Below, in pieces: positions 42,536-60,558 of a stretch of 64,000 nt of DNA. Made by a program: the position numbers and the translations under genes. The stretch spans positions 48,480-112,479 of the forward strand of contig CACIBE010000006.1 in NCBI GenBank assembly GCA_902584805.1, given 5' to 3'. The DNA comes from an uncultured Alphaproteobacteria bacterium (GTDB lineage Bacteria; Pseudomonadota; Alphaproteobacteria; HIMB59; GCA-002718135). The first letter of the stretch is position 1; every line of letters starts with the position of its first letter. The notes under the pieces are model-generated. The model did not search any database, was not told the origin of the DNA, and was given only the letters and a program-made list of their open reading frames with translations.

Positions 42536-43060
42536 ATGAGTTTAGATAAAAATAATTCGCAATATAGTAAAATTGCAAAATTATTTCATTGGGGGTTTGT
42601 TCTTTTATTTGTTTATGGTGTAGCAAAGCAAGTAGATGATATTAATCAGCTTGAAGACCAAGCATTTTTTAGATTTGAAATTATTTTTGCAGTAATTTTT
42701 CTGTTTCTTCTATTAATCCGTCTAATTTATATGAAAACAACACAAAAGACATCCTTACCTGCAGATACTCCTAAAGCTCAAAAATTAGCTGCTAAAATTG
42801 TTCACAACGGTATGTATGCTTTATTAATAGGCACTGTGTTATCAGGGTTATTGATTGCATTTTTATTTTGGATAGAACTTAGAGATGGAATTTTAATTAA
42901 TATTGTTATTTTTTTTCACGAACTAAATATTAATTTGCTCTATTTATTTATTGGTATACATATTGTAGCAGCAACCTATCATCGTTTAAAAAGAGATGGT
43001 GTTTGGAGCTCAATGGTGCCTTTTTTGAAAGAAAAAAACTCTTTAAAAAATGAAATATAA
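42536..43060 (+). CDS. Cytochrome b561 family protein
   Basis: A 174-residue inner-membrane di-haem b-type cytochrome with about four transmembrane helices. Candidate haem ligands are the histidines in KLFHWGF, KIVHNGMYAL, IFFHELN and ATYHRLKR. It probably moves electrons from the quinol pool. Its last 11 bases overlap the next gene. A truncated, nearly identical copy of its 3' two-thirds lies at 46225-46562 on the other strand, inside a mobile element. Confidence 0.87.
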   Translation: MSLDKNNSQYSKIAKLFHWGFVLLFVYGVAKQVDDINQLEDQAFFRFEIIFAVIFLFLLLIRLIYMKTTQKTSLPADTPKAQKLAAKIVHNGMYALLIGTVLSGLLIAFLFWIELRDGILINIVIFFHELNINLLYLFIGIHIVAATYHRLKRDGVWSSMVPFLKEKNSLKNEI

Positions 43061-43973
43061 AAAATTAATTGAAGATTTAAAAATAGATAGTTTTGAGTAT
43101 TTAGATATAGGTTCAGGATATGATTTTCTTATTACCAGCACAACTTCATCTGTTGGAATAAATAATTTTACTGTTGATAAAGCAATTGCAAATAAATTTA
43201 ATTTAAAATTAATAGATCCAGCAATTGAACAAAACCAAAAAATTGAAAATCTTAAAAAATATTTCAAAAGTGTTAGTACGTTTAAAGATGCTGTTTATGA
43301 TGGAAATAAAAAAATCTTCAATATTTTGAAAGCAACACATGGAAGTTCTTTTTTAGAACCTCATATGGAAAATATTATTAATTGGAGAGGTTATGACAAT
43401 CGATTTGAAATAGTAAATAAAAAAGAAATTCAAACTGTTAAATTTAGTGATTTTATTAAAATAAATAAAATTGAATGCATAGATTATTTAAGATTAATGG
43501 TTCAAGGTCAAGGTTTTGATATTTTAAAAGACTTAGATGAAAACAACTTTAGAAAAATAAATTTAATTTCTATGACTGTAGAATTTATTCAAATTTATAG
43601 AAACCAGGGCATCTTTAGTGATATAATTAAATTATTATCAATTAATGGTTTTAAAATTGTAAATTTTGAAAAAAATACAACTGGGAGAATTTCAAATCCT
43701 AAAAAAAGAAAAATAAATAAATTAATTTGGTCAGATATTTTATTTATTAAAGATTTTACAAAACATAATGATAAAAAAGAAGAAGATATATACAAAATGG
43801 CCATTTTATTATCTAGTTTAAATTTTGAAGAAGAGGCTATTTTTTTATTACGTGAGAATAAAATAGATAAAAAAATAATTAATTTTTTTATTAAAATTCA
43901 TAAAAGTAAAAGAGGGATTATCGAAAAATTAAATTTAATTTTAAAAAAAATAAAAAATAATATCTTCTCCTAA
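43050..43973 (+). CDS. FkbM-like methyltransferase-type protein, divergent
   Basis: A 307-residue protein whose layout resembles FkbM-type SAM methyltransferases: FEYLDIGSGYD near 15-25, VKFSDFIKINKIECIDYLRLMVQGQG near 130-155 (normal family pattern IDLLKIDVEG), and LISMTVEFIQIY. The canonical acidic residues of the second motif are replaced (LMVQGQG), so activity is uncertain. The C-terminus is a lysine-rich helical extension. It overlaps cytochrome b561 by 11 bp. It is the last chromosomal gene before the integrated elements. Confidence 0.5.
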   Translation: MKYKKLIEDLKIDSFEYLDIGSGYDFLITSTTSSVGINNFTVDKAIANKFNLKLIDPAIEQNQKIENLKKYFKSVSTFKDAVYDGNKKIFNILKATHGSSFLEPHMENIINWRGYDNRFEIVNKKEIQTVKFSDFIKINKIECIDYLRLMVQGQGFDILKDLDENNFRKINLISMTVEFIQIYRNQGIFSDIIKLLSINGFKIVNFEKNTTGRISNPKKRKINKLIWSDILFIKDFTKHNDKKEEDIYKMAILLSSLNFEEEAIFLLRENKIDKKIINFFIKIHKSKRGIIEKLNLILKKIKNNIFS

Positions 43974-44044
43974 GCTAATATTATAGGTGAACCTGGAGTA
44001 TTTTAAAAAAAACTGGATAAATAAATCAAAATTCAAGATTATAG

Positions 44045-44067
44045 TGGGGCGTTCTGTTGCTCGGTGC
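44045..44067 (+). repeat. att core copy 1 (ssrA 3'-end sequence)
   Basis: A 23-bp copy starting TGGGGCGTTCTGT, identical to 49928-49950, where it forms the 3' end of ssrA. It marks the left boundary of the whole array. The DNA on its left is probably the original chromosome downstream of ssrA. Confidence 0.85.
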
Positions 44068-44086
44068 GGGAACTAGTGCTCCTTTT

Positions 44087-44217
44087 ATGACGCGTGAACA
44101 AACACCCAAAACAATAAGCAATCTCTAGCTAATTCGCTCATTCTTTGTTAAAAAAGTTATATCATTTAATCCTCAAAAAATGAAATTTTTAATAAAAATG
44201 ACGCGTAATGGACGCGT
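44087..44217 (+). repeat. Left arm-type repeats of element 1 (GACGCGT)
   Basis: ATGACGCGTGA at 44087-44097, ATGACGCGT at 44198-44206 and GGACGCGT at 44210-44217, all in one orientation. The palindromic ACGCGT core is rare in this AT-rich DNA. The last two lie inside the first codons of the element's first gene. Confidence 0.65.
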
Positions 44218-44644
44218 AAACTTAGGGCATTTTTCTTATTCTAATGATAGTAATAATTTTATGAATTCTAATGAGGCTATAGATTTTATAAAAAATAATA
44301 AAATATTTTGCTTTAAAACTATGTTTGCTGGAAAAGAAAAAATTTACGGACTTACAGTTTTAAGAGAATATGAAATTAAAAATTGGTATCATGCTATAGA
44401 TTTACAAATTGATCCAAAAGATTATTTAAATTTAAATAAGGAAAAATTAATTGAATATTTAAAAAAGGTTCACGTTTATATTTTGTGCGATAAAAAACCC
44501 ATTATTTCCCATATTAATGATTGCTTGCATCTTGATATATATAAAAATATAGGATTAGAGGGTCTTAACAAAAGAGCAGATCTAATAAGAGATAATGAAA
44601 ATTTATTAAATAAAATAAAAATTAAATTTCAAATTAATGAATAA
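44180..44644 (+). CDS. Small protein resembling the C-terminal SH3-like domain of exonuclease I
   Basis: A 154-residue protein. From memory its pattern follows the ExoI (SbcB) C-terminal region: CFKTMFAGKEKIYGLTVL, then HAIDLQIDPKDYLNL, KLIEYLKK, and a KPIISHIND stretch where ExoI has VHINKCPVL, ending in GLEGLNKRADLIRDN. The N-terminal DEDD nuclease domain is absent, so it should not cut DNA. ExoI uses this region to bind DNA and SSB, so a modulator of the host enzyme is possible (inference). The start may be 44180 or the ATG at 44198; the latter lies in an arm-type repeat. It overlaps the next gene by 8 bp. Confidence 0.5.
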   Translation: MKFLIKMTRNGRVNLGHFSYSNDSNNFMNSNEAIDFIKNNKIFCFKTMFAGKEKIYGLTVLREYEIKNWYHAIDLQIDPKDYLNLNKEKLIEYLKKVHVYILCDKKPIISHINDCLHLDIYKNIGLEGLNKRADLIRDNENLLNKIKIKFQINE

Positions 44645-45338
44645 TAGAATTTATAAGCTTACCGTCTATTCAATTAAATTTTATTTGCTAATATTTTTAT
44701 CTATATTGATCTCATTTGAACTTTATGGACAAACAACAATTTTGTCTCATGAAAATCTTAAACTTGGGATGACCAAGGATGAAGTTTTATCAAGAATAGA
44801 AGTAAAGTCATTATCAATAAAGTCTGAAGGTGAATACGGGCCCGAATATACTTTGATTTTTGATAATGCTTATTATGAAATTGAAGGTATTAAATTTGAA
44901 AGAAGGCTTAGACTTGATAGTGATATATTAACAGAAATTAGATTAGGCAAAATCTATTTAGAAACTAGCAAAGAAGAGGATGCACAAGAATATTCAAATA
45001 AATTATCTAATTTATTTTTATTAAAAGGAAAAAAATTAACAAATAATGAGCCAATTTATGAAAATACAATTCTTGAAAATCAAATTCAAATTTTTGATAT
45101 TCAATTCGTTGGTCAAAAATATGAAGCTATAGAAAGACAATGTCATTTTGATGCAGAAAAAACGAAACGAGAAACCTACAAATTTATTTTAGATAATGCT
45201 CAATTTATTTATGAATTCGATAGTTCCCCTTGTCATGAATTAGATGGTTTTATCTCTAATTTTAAAGTTTATTACCAAATAAAAAATTCATATATTTTTG
45301 AAGAAGAACAGAGAAAGATTAAAAAAAGTAAATTTTAG
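44637..45338 (+). CDS. Secreted protein of unknown function
   Basis: A 233-residue protein with a signal peptide or N-terminal anchor (hydrophobic about 13-30, possible cut after ELYGQ). ENLKLGMTKDEVLSRI near 40-55 resembles the GMTkeEVl turn of SmpA/OmlA-like domains. Two cysteines late in the chain (in RQCHFD and SSPCHE) could form a disulphide. It is coupled to the upstream gene. I do not recognise a function. Confidence 0.6.
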   Translation: MNNRIYKLTVYSIKFYLLIFLSILISFELYGQTTILSHENLKLGMTKDEVLSRIEVKSLSIKSEGEYGPEYTLIFDNAYYEIEGIKFERRLRLDSDILTEIRLGKIYLETSKEEDAQEYSNKLSNLFLLKGKKLTNNEPIYENTILENQIQIFDIQFVGQKYEAIERQCHFDAEKTKRETYKFILDNAQFIYEFDSSPCHELDGFISNFKVYYQIKNSYIFEEEQRKIKKSKF

Positions 45339-45344
45339 ATACTT

Positions 45345-45563
45345 CTATTTTTTCCTTATCAAAAAAGCGATTGTAATGAATATTACCGCTAAAGCCCAAC
45401 TAAATGGATACATTTCAAAAGTTGTATTCCAAAAAACTAATACTGGCCAATGATCTAGAAAAAAAGGTCTTATTAGAACACTTCCGAAGTCATAAATAAT
45501 CCATAGGGTAAATAAATAATACGAGTAGTAAAAAATTTTTTTAATATTATTATTTAAGACCAT
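45345..45563 (-). CDS. Small two-helix membrane protein
   Basis: A 72-residue protein with two hydrophobic segments (about 10-30 and 50-67) separated by an aromatic loop (RPFFLDHWPVLVFWN), ending RKK. It is convergent with the secreted-protein gene, 6 bp between stops. No family is recognised; composition and helix pattern favour a real gene. Confidence 0.5.
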   Translation of the reverse strand: MVLNNNIKKIFYYSYYLFTLWIIYDFGSVLIRPFFLDHWPVLVFWNTTFEMYPFSWALAVIFITIAFLIRKK

Positions 45564-45615
45564 TCTTTTTTATACTAGGTAAATTTAATATAGTCATGAA
45601 TATTTTAATTTTTTT

Positions 45616-45635
45616 TACGCGTATATGACGCGTGA
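45616..45635 (+). repeat. Right arm-type repeats of element 1 (ACGCGT)
   Basis: TACGCGTA at 45616-45623 and ATGACGCGTGA at 45625-45635, the latter identical over 11 bp to the left-end copy at 44087. They lie about 60 bp from the next att core, as arm sites of a tyrosine integrase would. Confidence 0.65.
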
Positions 45636-45691
45636 TGTTGGAGCATTTGTAAGAAAGGATAAGCTAGAAGCCAAAAACTAGATTTATGAGT

Positions 45692-45714
45692 GGGGCGTTC
45701 TGTTGCTCGGTGCG
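45692..45714 (+). repeat. att core copy 2
   Basis: A 23-bp copy of the ssrA 3'-end core, identical to copies 1 and 4. It is the shared boundary of elements 1 and 2. Confidence 0.85.
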
Positions 45715-45732
45715 TGTGACGGGGCTCATGCA

Positions 45733-45855
45733 AAACGGCACAAAGCTTAGCCCAAAAGTTTAAGCAAACTCTAACAAATTTGCCAATCCTTTCTTAAAAA
45801 GTTCATACCACATAACCAAGAAAATTGGTAATTCAAACGGCACAGAAACGGCACA
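45733..45855 (+). repeat. Left arm-type repeats of element 2 (AAACGGCACA)
   Basis: Three identical 10-mers at 45733-45742, 45835-45844 and 45846-45855 in the same orientation; the last two are spaced 11 bp, about one helical turn. Confidence 0.7.
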
Positions 45856-45894
45856 AATTATTTATGCTCGGTGGACGTATTTGGTGGTTTAGAT

Positions 45895-46033
45895 TCCCAT
45901 AATTATGGGATGAATGATTCTGTAAAATGGAAATAACAAATCACTATGGCAACTTGTTACAAGCTCACCCACGTGTAAAAAATGGAATCTAAAAGGGCAA
46001 ATAGGTCCGTCGGCTCCGCCGCCTTCGGCGGCG
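45895..46033. other. Non-coding stretch of element 2 with a palindrome and a GC-rich hairpin
   Basis: The 510 bp between core copy 2 and the b561 remnant hold no convincing gene. They contain a perfect 16-bp palindrome TCCCATAATTATGGGA (45895-45910) and a GC-rich hairpin CGCCGCC-TTC-GGCGGCG (46017-46033) with a UUCG-type loop, striking in DNA this AT-rich. Either could be an origin, operator or RNA structure; no function can be assigned. Confidence 0.5.
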
Positions 46034-46224
46034 TCGCTTGTTAAACTTTTTACTTTTTTATTTACTTTTTTATTTAACCATACACCCCCTAAATAATAAT
46101 TATGGATGTTATAATGTTGCCTACAACACAATTTACCTCAAATGATAACGTTTAAAATTATATAAAAAAAATTAACTAATCCCAATGGGAAAAATTAAAA
46201 AAATAATTTTATTAAATTAAAAAT

Positions 46225-46562
46225 TTATTTGTGGTTTTTTTCTTTAAAAAAAGGCACCATTGAGCTCCAAACACCATCTCTTTTTAAACGATGATAAGTT
46301 GCTGCTAATATATGAATGCCTATTAACCAATAAAGTAAATTAATGTTTAGTTCGTGAAAAAAAATAACAATATTAATTAAAATTCCATCTCTAAGTTCAA
46401 TCCAAAATAAGAAACCAATTAATAATCCTGATAACACGGTGCCTGTTAACAAGGCATACATTCCGTTGTGAACAATTTTAGCAGCTAATTTTTGAGCTTT
46501 TGGAGTATCTTCAGGTAAAGATGTCTTATGTGCGTGTCCCTCATTGCCATTATTTGCTAAAT
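46225..46562 (-). pseudogene. 5'-truncated cytochrome b561 gene
   Basis: Reading on the minus strand, an open frame from about 46562 gives KTSLPEDTPKAQKLAAKIVH and then MYALLTGTVLSGLLIGFLFW to the end, nearly identical to residues from about 76 onward of the chromosomal protein at 42536. The first transmembrane helix and first haem histidine are missing and no start codon precedes the homologous part. An ATG at 46461 would only give 78 residues. Near-identity extends to DNA, so the copy is recent or from a close relative. Confidence 0.75.
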
Positions 46563-46574
46563 TGACATTTTAAT

Positions 46575-46594
46575 ATAACTATATTACTAGTTAT
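46575..46594 (+). promoter_or_regulatory. Inverted repeat before arsR, probable operator
   Basis: ATAACTA-N6-TAGTTAT (46575-46594), a perfect 7-bp inverted repeat ending 6 bp before the regulator's ATG, downstream of TTGACA at 46562-46567. The size and place fit an ArsR-family operator and autoregulation. Confidence 0.6.
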
Positions 46595-46600
46595 ATCATT

Positions 46601-46918
46601 ATGAAAAAAATTGATTTAATAGCTAAGGGATTTAAAGCTATTGGTTCCACTCCACGTTTAGCTGTTTTTCTAGAACTCGTAAAAGCTGGGAACACCGGAT
46701 TATCGGTTGGAGAAATACAAGAGCAGCTAGATATTCCTCTATCCACGCTTGCTCATCATCTACGATTTTTGGAGAATGCTGAACTCATCCATCAAGAAAA
46801 AAAAGGACGATCCATTTTTACATACGCAAATTTTCATCAAGCAGAATTACTTGCAAGCTATGTATTAAAGGAATGTTGTCGTAATGAAAAACAAACTCCA
46901 AAAAGAAAAACTGCATGA
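46601..46918 (+). CDS. ArsR-family winged-helix repressor
   Basis: A 105-residue regulator. The recognition helix region is IQEQLDIPLSTLAHHLRFLENAEL (about 40-63), followed by the wing IHQEKKGRSIFTY. The vicinal cysteines in LKECCRNE near 91-92 match arsenic- or metal-sensing ArsR proteins that carry a C-terminal Cys pair. It overlaps the permease gene by 4 bp (ATGA), so the two are one unit. Metal or metalloid response is inferred from these cysteines and the partner. Confidence 0.82.
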   Translation: MKKIDLIAKGFKAIGSTPRLAVFLELVKAGNTGLSVGEIQEQLDIPLSTLAHHLRFLENAELIHQEKKGRSIFTYANFHQAELLASYVLKECCRNEKQTPKRKTA

Positions 46919-47958
46919 ACTACGCAAACTTCATCTCAGCTAATTTTTTTCATTCAAATTATAAAAAAATCAAATCAGTCTGGTTGATTACCTTATCTAT
47001 TGTTTTGATTATTGGCATCATGGATATAAGTAATTTGCCGTCCATCATCACCAAAGCATTATCTGCTCTAATAGGAACTATTCCTTTTATCTTGATTGCT
47101 ATTTTATTAATTGCTTCTCTTAAAGCATCGGGTGCTGAACGTATTATTTCCAAATCGTTTCAAGGAAGAGAAATTAATATGATTTTTTTGGCCACTATAG
47201 TTGGCGGGCTTGCCCCTTTTTGTTCTTGTGAAGTTATTCCATTTATTGCCAGTATGTTAGCATTAGGTGTACCTCTCTCAGCGGTTATGGCATTTTGGTT
47301 GTCATCTCCGTTAATAGACCCGCCTGCATTATTAATCACTGCCTCTGCGCTTGGCTGGGAATTCGCAATAGCCAAAACTCTCTCAGCTCTCTTTCTAGGT
47401 TTATTAGGAGGTTTTGGTATTTTTATATTTTCAAAAATGGGATTATTTAGCTCTCCATTAAAAGTAATGAATAATGCACAAAGTTGCTGTTCGGTAAAAT
47501 CTTTTACGAACAAAACTATTTGGAAGTTTTGGCAAGACAAACAACGCATGCAATTTTTCTGGTCTGAGTTTTCCTCAAATGGAATATTTCTACTTAAATG
47601 GTTAACACTAGCCTATCTGCTTGAAGCAATCATGATTATTTATATTCCCACACAACTAATTGGAAGCATCGTGGGAGGAAATGGATTATTTTCTATTGTT
47701 GTCGGAGCATTCATCGGTGTTCCCGCCTACCTGAATTCCTATGCAGCTCCCGCTGTAGTATCAGGATTGCTAGAACAAGGATTAAGTGCAGGTGGGGCAT
47801 TAGCCTTTCTTGTGGGAGGTGCTATTTCTAGTATACCAGCTATGACTGCTGTTTGGTCACTGGTCAATAGAGCAACTTTTACGGCATATTTATTTTTTGG
47901 TTTAGGAGGCGCTATAATGTGCGGTATATTTTTTCAAATATATGCTGTTACTTTTTAG
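46915..47958 (+). CDS. ArsP/YraQ-type (DUF318) permease
   Basis: A 347-residue membrane protein with about eight helices, of the family that includes organoarsenical efflux permease ArsP and YraQ. The signature GLAPFCSCEVIPF (98-110) with Cys103 and Cys105, PLSAVMAFWLSSPLIDPPAL, and the later GAFIGVPAYLNSYAAPAVV mark the two inverted halves. A pair of cysteines (SCCS) lies in the central loop. Paired with an ArsR-type repressor it likely exports an arsenical or metal. Codon choice is less AT-biased than in neighbours, which fits transfer. Confidence 0.82.
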   Translation: MNYANFISANFFHSNYKKIKSVWLITLSIVLIIGIMDISNLPSIITKALSALIGTIPFILIAILLIASLKASGAERIISKSFQGREINMIFLATIVGGLAPFCSCEVIPFIASMLALGVPLSAVMAFWLSSPLIDPPALLITASALGWEFAIAKTLSALFLGLLGGFGIFIFSKMGLFSSPLKVMNNAQSCCSVKSFTNKTIWKFWQDKQRMQFFWSEFSSNGIFLLKWLTLAYLLEAIMIIYIPTQLIGSIVGGNGLFSIVVGAFIGVPAYLNSYAAPAVVSGLLEQGLSAGGALAFLVGGAISSIPAMTAVWSLVNRATFTAYLFFGLGGAIMCGIFFQIYAVTF

Positions 47959-48014
47959 TTCTAAAACCAACCAAGGAGATTGTTAAGTGTTCTGGTTATT
48001 TACTAACTTTATTC

Positions 48015-49030
48015 TTACGATTTCTTTTTCTCATTAATCTTTTCAACTAATTCGATAGCTTTTATTCTCGTATACTTCTGAAGCTCCGACCAACTTTTAT
48101 GACCGCTTACTACTGCAACACTACTCACATCCCATCCGTCTTGGAATAGTCTTGTAATTTTGGTAGCACGACAATCATGAAACCTAAAATCTTTTATACC
48201 CGCTCTCTTACAAGCTTGTTCAAAGTAATGTCTGAACTTATCTCTATGTATTGGAAATAAAGTCTGGTGATCTCTAAATTCTAAAACCTTATCTTTAAAT
48301 CTATATTTAGAACAAATATCTAAAGCTCTAATTGTTAATGGACAATCTCGGCTATCACCGTTCTTTGTATCATGTAAACTTGCAATCGATTTATCAAAAT
48401 CAATATCTCTTACTTGTAGTCTGGTAATTTCACCAAACCTCATCGCAGTTTCTAAAGCGAACTCTACTATGTCTGATAATTGATCTAGTCCACTTTTTTA
48501 CATGCTAATAATAATTTATCTTGTTCTTCATACGTTAATATTCTGTCAATCTTTGTCATAACCTTTTCTTTCTTGACGAGTGTCGTCGGATTATTTGGCG
48601 GAAGTAATATTCCCCAGTTTAATCGTGCAGTTTCCCAAACCGTATAAAAGTAATGGATGTATTTATTGACGGTAGCTGGTGCTCTTGATTTCTTTAAATC
48701 GTTTTTAAAATCAATAACCATCTTCGTGCTCAATCTTAAAACTTTCGTTCTTGCGATCGGCTGACGTATAAGAAAATTTAACTTATAAACTTCTGATCTA
48801 GCACCTTTCTTGTTTGGCGTGATCTCATCTCGATAACGAGTAATCAAATGCGCCATGGTTAAGTGTGCGCTATCTCTAAAATCTTGAAACTGTTCTTTCT
48901 CTAAAGCTAGTTCTGTATCTCTTAACCATTTAGATGCATCGCCTTTAGATTGAAAACTTTTACTTACATATTTTCCATTGTGTCTAGCTTCTGCTCGCCA
49001 CTTTTTTTTATACTTTCTTAAACTGCCCAT
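48015..49030 (-). pseudogene. Tyrosine recombinase/phage-type integrase split by a -1 frameshift
   Basis: The N-terminal part (49030 to 48485, 181 residues) has an AP2-like arm-binding start (GSLRKYKKKWRAEARHNGKY) and a core-binding domain. It ends at a TAG just after a run of six A (minus strand). The -1 frame continues as GLDQLSDIVEFALETAMRFG and runs to 48015, giving the catalytic domain: Arg in MRFGEITRL, HDCRATKITRL, SGHKSW and Tyr in LQKYTRI. All catalytic residues are intact. Read across the shift, the protein is about 340 residues, normal for integrases. It may be a true pseudogene, an assembly error in a homopolymer, or a slippage site. Confidence 0.85.
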
Positions 49031-49050
49031 AGTCCTTTTTTCTTTCTCTC

Positions 49051-49071
49051 AAACGGCACCAAAACGGCACA
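49051..49071 (+). repeat. Right arm-type repeats of element 2 (AAACGGCAC)
   Basis: AAACGGCACC at 49051-49060 and AAACGGCACA at 49062-49071, spaced 11 bp and in the same orientation as the left-end copies. They lie just upstream of the integrase start codon and 56 bp from core copy 3. Confidence 0.7.
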
Positions 49072-49126
49072 ACGTTAGAGCAATCTAGAAAGAATGAACT
49101 CTGATATAGAATATGCGAAAAACTAG

Positions 49127-49139
49127 TGGGGCGTTCTGT
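49127..49139 (+). repeat. att core copy 3 (short)
   Basis: TGGGGCGTTCTGT, identical to the first 13 bp of the other copies, after which the sequence diverges. The strand exchange of the integrase should therefore lie within these 13 bp. Confidence 0.8.
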
Positions 49140-49190
49140 ATAACGACTACTAAATCATTATTAACAGAAAATAAGGACTTTTGGAAACTT

Positions 49191-49254
49191 CTTCGTAGAA
49201 ACTTCGTAGTAAGTTTTCTTTATTTGTCAGATTTCTTGTTTTAGTTCTTCGTAG
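49191..49254 (+). repeat. Left arm-type repeats of element 3 (CTTCGTAG)
   Basis: CTTCGTAG at 49191-49198, 49202-49209 and 49247-49254, same orientation. The first two are 11 bp apart. Confidence 0.65.
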
Positions 49255-49260
49255 TCTTTT

Positions 49261-49788
49261 TTATTCTTTAATTAAGGATAATAATTTCTTTGCTAGTCTA
49301 GAAACTGCCTTTCTTCTATCTTTTGAAAGTTTTTTAATAATTTTTATATTTTCTTTTATTGTTTTATTATCAATTTTATTGAAAGTTATTAGAGCATTCA
49401 TTGATTGACACAAAACAATCCAATCACTGGAATTATTAAGATAATCAGATACAATTTTTTTTGCTTTTTTTTGTTCTTTATTTTCTAATTGATTAACTAA
49501 TTCTGAAAATAATTGAGCGCAGGTCCATTGTGTGGAAGATTGTTTTATTTTTGAAATTTTGTTTAAGAAAATATGTTTAAAATCTAAAAACCATTCTGGT
49601 TTTTGTCTAAATATTCTTTTAAAAGCATTTGATGTTCTTAATCTTACTATTTGGTCTGTGCTTGAATAACACTTAATTAATGGATTAATTCTATTTTTTT
49701 TAACAATAACATGTTCAACAACTTTTATTGTATTACCTAGTGAATTTGGATGACCTCCAGTTAGTTCAGACTCATAATTCATTATCAA
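49261..49788 (-). CDS. HEAT-repeat-like protein of unknown function
   Basis: A 175-residue, all-helical protein. Repeating helix pairs such as IVRLRTSNAFKRIFRQKPEW, STQWTCAQLFSELVNQL and WIVLCQSMNALITFNKI resemble HEAT or DNA-alkylation-repair-type repeats, and the C-terminus is lysine-rich (KDRRKAVSRLAKKLLSLIKE). It may bind nucleic acid or protein. It is the sole cargo of element 3. No enzymatic motif is seen. Confidence 0.55.
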   Translation of the reverse strand: MIMNYESELTGGHPNSLGNTIKVVEHVIVKKNRINPLIKCYSSTDQIVRLRTSNAFKRIFRQKPEWFLDFKHIFLNKISKIKQSSTQWTCAQLFSELVNQLENKEQKKAKKIVSDYLNNSSDWIVLCQSMNALITFNKIDNKTIKENIKIIKKLSKDRRKAVSRLAKKLLSLIKE

Positions 49789-49847
49789 TTAATTTGTTTA
49801 AATAAATCTGACAATTAACATTACCTAATAATAAATTATATATTTTC

Positions 49848-49878
49848 CTTCGTAGTAACTTCGTAGTAAACTTCGTAG
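49848..49878 (+). repeat. Right arm-type repeats of element 3 (CTTCGTAG)
   Basis: CTTCGTAG at 49848-49855, 49859-49866 and 49871-49878, with the longer unit ACTTCGTAGTAA shared with 49201-49212. The array ends 50 bp from core copy 4. Confidence 0.7.
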
Positions 49879-49927
49879 AGAGGTTTTTAAAAGAAATTGT
49901 TGATTTGGTTAGATAATATTTAAAAAA

Positions 49928-49950
49928 TGGGGCGTTCTGTTGCTCGGTGC
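49928..49950 (+). repeat. att core copy 4, within the ssrA 3' end
   Basis: The copy that belongs to the functional ssrA gene. On the minus strand it forms the closing arm of a GGGGC/GCCCC hairpin followed by ATTTTTT, the probable end of the tmRNA transcript. Target of all integrations in the array. Confidence 0.85.
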
Positions 49951-50171
49951 CCCTAACCGCGCTCACCTAGAACCTAGGCAGCAAGTGCTAATCTATTATC
50001 GTTAGCTTTTATAAAATAGCCCGATAACGGTGGTACAATACCGGATAAAGTCTTTGTCTTTGAATTACCGTCAAACCTATTTCGTCCCCATATTGGTGGA
50101 GACGCCGGGTACCGCCCCCGGGTCCGAATAACTTATTGCACAAAGCATTTATTATCTTAGTTGCAAAGCAA
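49928..50171 (-). ncRNA. ssrA: Two-piece (circularly permuted) transfer-messenger RNA
   Basis: On the minus strand the acceptor piece comes first: from about 50171 to the ACCA at 50097-50094, with the T-arm CGGACCCGGG...CCCGGCG. After a 4-nt spacer (ATAT, 50093-50090), the coding piece begins GGGGACGAAATAGGTTTGACGG at 50089. The tag reading frame is 50006-49974, GCT AAC GAT ... GCC TAG, encoding ANDNRLALAA. It ends in a hairpin and T-run at about 49922. This permuted arrangement is diagnostic of alphaproteobacteria. tmRNA rescues stalled ribosomes and tags the product for ClpXP; the adaptor sspB is encoded at 42056. Confidence 0.93.
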
Positions 50172-50178
50172 CGTTTTC

Positions 50179-50184
50179 ATTATA
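50179..50184 (-). promoter_or_regulatory. -10 element of the ssrA promoter
   Basis: TATAAT on the minus strand (50184 to 50179), a perfect -10 hexamer about 7 bp before the inferred 5' end of the acceptor piece. The -35 region at 17 bp (TTTCAA) is weak. Confidence 0.6.
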
Positions 50185-50274
50185 CCTTAAACTAATTATA
50201 CTTGAAAGTTTTGTCTTGAAACCTAGCAATTAAAAAAAAAAATTGTTACTAATTAAGACATAAAATAAAAAAAT

Positions 50275-58997: not shown

Positions 58998-60558
<1,561 letters not shown>

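Follow-up and report, generated by a model that had tools for sequence, protein, structure and literature searches.

How do very small genetic elements, most of which encode no integrase, come to stand in tandem at the 3' end of a single RNA gene? The question is raised by a stretch of 64,000 nucleotides (below called the window) from contig CACIBE010000006.1 of an uncultured Alphaproteobacteria bacterium (assembly GCA_902584805.1). At its ssrA gene, which encodes transfer-messenger RNA (tmRNA), the window holds a stack of four short elements, three of them complete and one truncated. The explanation favored here, with reasonable though far from full confidence, is that these are cassettes that tyrosine integrases acting in trans would insert and excise, most of the elements having no integrase gene themselves, while each complete cassette has the common core and an end word, a short repeated sequence, of its own. 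The hosts are likely to belong to the SAR11 group, judging from the names on the records with relatives of element 3, the element next to ssrA; the named ones are single-cell genomes or metagenome-assembled genomes of uncultured Alphaproteobacteria or Pelagibacteraceae. Cells of this group rank among the most abundant in the ocean, and few mobile elements have been recognized in their small genomes.

The Target Site

The elements are integrated at the 3' end of ssrA, a permuted gene in two pieces located at 49926-50211 on the minus strand (Rfam RF01849 alpha_tmRNA, 216 bits). ARAGORN reports a permuted tmRNA* at 49883-50189 with the tag ANDNRLALAA. A preliminary description of this DNA had placed an intact ssrA at the right end of the stack, which both programs confirm. 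It had also named tmRNA as the target; this holds for the 3' end of ssrA, with the correction that the gene is permuted. Because of the permutation the core is the end of the coding piece, that is the non-tRNA-like 3' end, and not the T-arm of the tRNA-like end.

Core copies are found on the plus strand, by both repeat and core searches, at 44045-44067 (truncated element/element 1), 45691-45713 (element 1/element 2), 49127-49139 (13 bp, element 2/element 3), and 49928-49950 (element 3/ssrA). The positions 44045 and 49928 had been given correctly before, while 45692 was one base off, the repeat search giving 45691. GTGGGGCGTTCTGT has exact matches at 44044, 45690, and 49126, and the match at 49927 contains one mismatch. 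Allowing up to three mismatches, the window has five matches where 0.58 are expected, the fifth being at 59279 with three mismatches, and none of 100 shuffled sequences reached five. The 22-bp core occurs exactly three times in the 1.37-Mb genome (85% complete) to which the window belongs, with no further copy at up to three mismatches in that genome and none for a backward control, so the core is not a dispersed repeat. Chance repeats are ruled out by the shuffles, the genome-wide count, and the one-way orientation of the core in relatives described below.

The intervals between the cores, given for the plus strand, measure 1646 bp (element 1, 44046-45691), 3436 bp (element 2, 45692-49127), and 801 bp (element 3, 49128-49928). 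To their left, at 43034-44044 on the same strand, lies the truncated fourth element with a gene for an FkbM-type methyltransferase (43050-43973; Pfam PF05050). In the related locus L090 this gene, 96% identical at the amino acid level, stands within a complete element whose left core adjoins the native flank. Alignment to L090 shows that the window is without about 1.02 kb at the FkbM element, left core included. The three elements of about 1.65, 3.4, and 0.8 kb proposed earlier thus stand as to cores and sizes, but the stack comprises four, the FkbM element being truncated at the left.

A fragment of the 3' end of ssrA bounds the stack and the intact gene stands at its other end, which agrees with part of the island definition of the program Islander. 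This program further expects every island of a tandem array to have its own integrase (PMC4383910; statements about this and the other papers cited by PMC number refer to the accessible parts of their text), and in the window only element 2 carries one, elements 1 and 3 having none. Finders of this type, which demand an integrase per island, would miss most of the elements described here.

Stacks in Related Genomes

At up to two mismatches the core is found in 80 of the 110 genomes of the family, often in several copies of one orientation within a few kb. At up to three mismatches it is found in 119 of the 162 genomes of the order; the ssrA end of the sister family is slightly different. For comparison, 81 loci were assembled, namely the window and 80 regions from 76 of the 79 other genomes with a core match (three regions from G002 and two each from G057 and G064; G103, G107, and G108 were left out), all oriented by the 22-bp core. 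In the 0.93 Mb of these loci an exact 12-bp core occurs 169 times in the orientation of ssrA and never in reverse; with one mismatch allowed, the numbers are 191 and one.

Between the cores lie 110 intervals, distributed over 58 of the 81 loci and mostly 0.4-3.7 kb long with one open reading frame (ORF). Seven intervals were left out of the element counts (six below 400 bp and one of 11.2 kb in L036 with a one-mismatch core). Elements shorter than 5 kb number one in 28 loci, two in 18, three in seven, four in three, and five and seven in one locus each. The longest array, L085 (G066:C4), has eight cores in about 11 kb and several ORFs of one family. A non-redundant set, from which 27 of the 28 copies of element 3 were left out, consists of 76 elements of 0.4-5 kb with a median length of 1.07 kb, and 53 of them contain exactly one ORF of at least 70 amino acids. 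The preliminary description had seen a hotspot for small tandem elements mostly without recombinases; this is borne out, as element content varies among relatives and no invariant block is shared by them.

When 116 of the 155 ORFs were scanned (27 from copies of element 3, ten of the L036 interval, and two small ones of the window were left out), a single one was an integrase by Pfam. Among the 25 of 58 families listed, the cargo includes five trypsin-like proteases, methyltransferases with up to four matches per model, and acetyltransferases, FkbM proteins, and bactofilins with three each. As regards a role of the cargo in defense, PADLOC gave matches to a trypsin-like model for five of the 116 ORFs and one C5 methyltransferase. 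In seven of the 20 single-core loci listed (L042, L044, L045, L054, L063, L089, and L100) the same gene-start flank stands directly at ssrA. This flank stands to the left of the outermost core in L090, and similar 24-nt flanks are found in L092 and L105. Since the flank beside ssrA is thus the one found outside the stack elsewhere, these seven sites look empty.

End Repeats of the Elements

Each complete element of the window has a word repeated near both ends, in all cases on the plus strand. In element 1, ACGCGT is found at 44090, 44201, and 44212 on the left (44090-44217) and at 45617 and 45628, 11 bp apart, on the right (45617-45633). The word of element 2, ACGGCAC, occurs at 45735, 45837, and 45848 (45735-45854) and at 49053 and 49064 (49053-49070), and that of element 3, CTTCGTAG, at 49191, 49202, and 49247 (49191-49254) and at 49848, 49859, and 49871 (49848-49878). 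The same geometry is seen in other elements with the same word. In the ACGCGT class, tested in element 1 and seven more, the repeats stand at 33 and 136-156 bp on the left and at 68-69 and 57-58 bp on the right, measured from the core on that side. In the ACGGCAC class (element 2, L040, and L084) the values are 32 and 134-154 bp on the left and 68 and 57 bp on the right. In the class of element 3 (with five others tested) the distances are about 52, 63, and 108 bp on the left and 73, 62, and 50 bp on the right, within 2 bp; some copies are without one or two of the repeats, and none of the repeats is internal.

At least two 8-mers are common to both ends in 46 of the 76 non-redundant elements, compared with a mean of 12.7 and a maximum of 25 in 2000 permutations. 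A tandem 7-mer pair, searched for at a spacing of 10-12 bp and found at 11-12 bp, is located 45-61 bp from the right core in 42 of the 76, as against one in a control shifted 100 bp inward, and 38 of the 42 have the word again at their left end. About a dozen end words occur, and one and the same word is found with unrelated cargo genes, while the adjacent elements 2 and 3 have different words. The right ends of integrase-bearing elements share the geometry, with pairs at 68 and 57 bp in element 2 and at 69 and 58 bp in genome G006, the word of the latter being GCTTCGGC. In 64 loci with a SAR11 tyrosine recombinase or a tRNA-Gly island, screened for 16 words, 11-12-bp pairs were found only in G000, G006, and tRNA-Gly loci that bear element 3. 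Repeats at a fixed distance from a core are the anatomy of the arm-type sites of lambda-type integrases. Both arm repeats at a fixed distance from the core and a short overlap are recognizable here, as in lambda-type attachment (att) sites, and the paired end repeats may be regarded as putative arm-type sites for different tyrosine integrases acting in trans, each word presumably being read by an integrase of its own.

Could one chromosomal enzyme serve all these ends? A tyrosine recombinase of about 350-370 amino acids is encoded in most SAR11 genomes searched (in G000 at L347:1110-2168 on G000:C16, with a 194-aa catalytic domain). Among the 57 genomes with at least one interval, many of which are incomplete, exactly one match to PF00589 is found in 37, none in nine, and two or more in 11. 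The single tyrosine recombinase is usually this protein; in many element-bearing genomes it is the only PF00589 protein found. That it integrates the elements is nevertheless very unlikely, as one conserved enzyme leaves the dozen or so end words unexplained, and G000 and G006 have integrases of another family at ssrA, of which a stump is present in G062.

Spread of Element 3

Matches of more than 150 bp to element 3 are present in 39 other loci, 27 of which carry essentially the whole element at 92.6-99.9% DNA identity; of the remaining 12, one is cut by a contig end and the others are partial or diverged. The identity is 94.7% with L047 and 99.3% with L074, while folA is about 77% identical there. 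In 25 loci, including the window, that have full-length element 3, folA, and thyA (300 pairs), element 3 diverges by at most 7.6%, compared with up to 23.8% for folA and thyA together. By Mantel test, distances in element 3 show no correlation with host distances (rho -0.09, a value reached in 1572 of 2000 permutations). Between folA and thyA rho is 0.87, reached in 0 of 2000. L047 and L066 even have identical copies in hosts 23% apart in folA and thyA. Since it is nearly identical in distantly related hosts, element 3 is, as far as sequence comparison can tell, mobile and has spread between distantly related cells.

SAR11 bacteria recombine at high rates, and homologous recombination between conserved flanks could in principle swap the content of the sites without any site-specific step. 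This is extremely unlikely to account for the pattern, as the high identity is confined to the element; in L074 it drops from 99.3% within element 3 to 76.7% in folA a few hundred bp away. In addition, element 3 has a second location with a 7-bp junction. In L386 it is located at the 3' end of rnhA and not at ssrA, with the junctions GGGCA-GTTCTGT-AGAACG and GGGGC-GTTCTGT-TCCCAG. As GTTCTGT alone is common to both, the crossover at rnhA is placed within these 7 bp. In the 22 core copies that have a single mismatch, the deviating base is among the first five positions in 18 cases and within the seven in four. Among the 33 loci from named genomes with element 3, a tmRNA was called in the stretch fetched for 28; L360 is a short contig.

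It had been proposed that newcomers insert next to ssrA. Element 3 is indeed innermost in 24 of its 28 copies, but in the other four another element stands between it and ssrA (including L083, where the left end of another element follows its right core). It is the sole element in, e.g., L092 and L095, and its neighbors differ elsewhere. Element 3 has likely spread with the help of integrases supplied by other elements.

Integrases and a Possible Mechanism

The integrase gene of element 2 (48015-49030, minus strand) is in two pieces, an N-terminal part at 48485-49030, whose match starts 97 bp from the core, and a catalytic part at 48015-48443. When the pieces were searched apart, the catalytic one matched PF00589 (1.2e-23) and the N-terminal one no Pfam family. 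The integrases of G000 and G006 are 57-58% and 70% identical, respectively, to integrase P0160, other genomes reaching at most 38%, and that of G006 has 817 relatives in protein catalogs. In locus L080 an element of 985 bp retains the first 56 residues of an integrase (87.5% identity), located 85 bp from the core, and no such match was found in left ends; this element may be a snapshot of integrase loss. A 26-aa integrase-like stretch in L040 was not recovered in a later search and is not counted.

For the trans-acting cassettes favored here the following steps are proposed. Each end word would be bound by a different integrase of the type found in element 2 and G006, and strands would be exchanged within the shared 7 bp GTTCTGT. 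Each insertion would rebuild the last few bases of ssrA from the right end of the element and push older elements outward. Some of the elements would probably derive from integrase-bearing islands that lost the integrase gene and kept both ends. The elements would then offer single genes a route into one fixed site, the words predicting which elements share an integrase, and gene gain in SAR11 cells, which are hard to culture, becomes testable from sequence. In a wider and more tentative form, for which confidence falls somewhat short of even, cassettes would be exchanged population-wide at tmRNA, the core setting the place and the arm word the integrase, so that single genes travel among species as addressed parcels, in an integron-like system made from lambda-type att sites.

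Several observations weigh against this mechanism. The two reading frames of the element 2 integrase, at 48443-48488, reflect either a real lesion or an assembly error. In the 162 genomes of the order, close members of its family are found only in G000 and G006, both at ssrA, and the contig with the G006 element does not include that element's left end. No integrase locus with the word of element 3 was found at SAR11 integrase loci. One search for such helpers required three copies of a word, which was too strict, as even the pairs known from element 2 and G006 escaped it; the screen of 64 loci for 16 words gave no such helper either. The 7-mer test gave no tandem pair in 34 of the 76 elements, among them element 1, which is missed as its word has six bases. 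As regards rnhA, an uninterrupted site of the same sequence was not found by pattern in the 162 genomes. In L420 and L421 rnhA stands beside the next gene without an insert, the junction being diverged, and the closest relative, G177, has other DNA at the site. Finally, in three genomes (L368, L377, and L382) element 3 is found away from ssrA, at the distal end of an island that adjoins tRNA-Gly.

Cis-mobilizable elements (CIMEs) have att sites at both ends and no integrase, and accrete in tandem. The elements without an integrase might likewise be leftovers of islands that are immobile or move only in cis with an integrase-bearing neighbor. Element 2 does adjoin elements 1 and 3, L080 retains a 5' stump of an integrase, and 15 Dehalococcoides islands at ssrA that lack an integration module might be cis-mobilizable according to the authors, who refer to CIMEs by name (PMC3146451). 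This explanation is unlikely, as element 3 occurs alone or with varied neighbors, spreads independently of its hosts, and has an end word different from that of the adjacent element 2; the counts of PF00589 proteins in the 57 genomes given above also speak against it. Elements 1 and 3 resemble CIMEs in having two att sites and neither an integrase nor a transfer gene, but that element 3 spreads independently suggests action in trans, and several arm words are used at one core.

Another explanation considered is that the elements live as pelagiphage satellites, for which a temperate phage would provide integrase and capsids. Marine bacteria are known to harbor short satellites that have no transfer genes (PMC10803314), a Pseudomonas island close to tmRNA is transduced by a jumbo phage (PMC12595487), and distant relatives of the integrase are found in phage records, including those of seven named Pelagibacter phages. 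However, all integrase matches in phage records (197 and 321 records) are below 60% identity, the 22-bp core is found in no viral contig, and the ssrA end gave no good match and four weak partial ones in 50,697 phage records. A search of viral contigs for close relatives only gave none for integrase P0160 or the element 3 protein, and no phage structural family is among the 25 of 58 Pfam and 25 of 75 PHROGs families listed. Two 14-mer scans of viral contigs gave 79 and at least 120 stretches; among the matches listed for contigs below 42% G+C, no two end words of the eight classes lie within 400 bp. The end-word pattern of element 3 matches two viral contigs, by pattern alone. Of 11 viral stretches looked at further, seven have a permuted tmRNA, while the match lies inside a gene in L154 and L174. 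Elements 1 and 3 contain, by Pfam, none of the genes (integrase, AlpA-type regulator, and primase) by which satellites of the phage-inducible chromosomal island (PICI) and phage-inducible chromosomal minimalist island (PICMI) types are defined (PMC10803314). Taken with the favorable points, this leaves the satellite explanation improbable.

The seven contigs of the viral collection with a permuted tmRNA (L270, L278, L283, L285, L305, L312, and L326), one of them 242 kb long, have a tag ending in ADENLALAA.

Comparison with Known Systems

For cyanobacteria, Williams reportedly described in 2003 that elements insert into permuted ssrA at its non-tRNA-like 3' end. The type of target is the same, while here SAR11-type bacteria have many elements, mostly without an integrase. 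The closest known parallels are the CIMEs discussed above and the ssrA stacks of Dehalococcoides, where islands lie in tandem downstream of ssrA in a streamlined genome, with direct repeats of its 3' end that number 11 in strain VS (PMC2764846, PMC3146451). The likeness extends to the integrase-less members. The Dehalococcoides islands differ by a CcrB-type serine recombinase and by vcr islands of about 12 kb. In contrast, the integrase of the window is a tyrosine recombinase (PF00589) and not of the CcrB type, the elements are mostly 0.4-3.7 kb with one ORF, ssrA is permuted, and the elements have end words of fixed geometry. The Pseudomonas tmRNA islands I23, I44, and I55 are also integrated at tmRNA, with short direct repeats and without transfer genes, but each has its own tyrosine integrase, alpA, and a common region of about 18 kb (PMC12595487).

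Arrays of integron cassettes that lack an integrase, as in clusters of attC sites lacking integron-integrases (CALINs), can be mobilized in trans (PMC11389934), and in these arrays too most units have a single gene and are separated by copies of one site. Instead of attC sites, the elements described here appear to have core and arm repeats at an RNA gene. No integron integrase scored above cut-off, the G006 integrase reaching 37.5 bits with integrase_gron as against 265. The preliminary description had further compared the elements to tycheposons, which likewise carry cargo in streamlined marine bacteria, stand at an RNA gene, and involve a tyrosine recombinase. The comparison fails on size, as tycheposons are 4-200 kb long, use tRNA sites, and have their own recombinase (PMC10872708), while the elements of the window are 0.8-3.4 kb long and stand at ssrA.

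Stacks at ssrA with integrase-less members and the trans mobilization of cassettes are thus already known, from Dehalococcoides and integrons, respectively. What appears new is that very small, mostly one-gene elements are the rule, that ssrA is permuted, and that a vocabulary of end words is used on one core. No description of ssrA elements in SAR11 was found in the literature searched, in which few subscription papers were covered.

Cargo of the Window and Minor Observations

Element 1 contains ORFs at 44180-44644 (154 aa) and 44637-45338 (233 aa) on the plus strand and 45345-45563 on the minus strand (72 aa). The protein search gave one relative of the 233-aa protein (90% identity). No ORF of element 1 or element 3 has a Pfam match above cut-off. 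The only ORF of element 3 (49261-49788, minus strand) encodes an all-helical, HEAT-repeat-like protein of 175 aa (AlphaFold pLDDT 95). Its best Foldseek matches are mostly HEAT-type proteins, none of them at E <= 0.001, and the predicted HEAT-like fold is the sole clue to its function. It has 507 relatives; the more distant ones, named Bacteroidota proteins included, are mostly 42-49% identical.

The tRNA-Gly island mentioned above has its own end word, CTTCACTGA, and a 201-aa ORF that is exonuclease-like by reading of its sequence. In L368 and L377 it is located near carotenoid-type genes.

Element 2 encodes an ArsR-type regulator at 46601-46918 (Pfam HTH_20/HTH_5; 54.3 bits with NCBIfam HTH_metalloreg, cut-off 55) and an ArsP_1-type permease at 46915-47958 (PF03773, 1.1e-34), both on the plus strand. 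The best NCBIfam match of the permease is to Cu/Zn efflux, below cut-off, and it probably acts in metal or metalloid efflux. On the minus strand, at 46225-46461, lies a 78-aa piece of cytochrome b561 (PF01292), which repeats in inverted orientation the 3' part of the gene at 42536-43060 (91% amino acid identity). This complete cytochrome b561 gene stands just to the left of the stack, and it looks as if element 2 had picked up chromosomal DNA.

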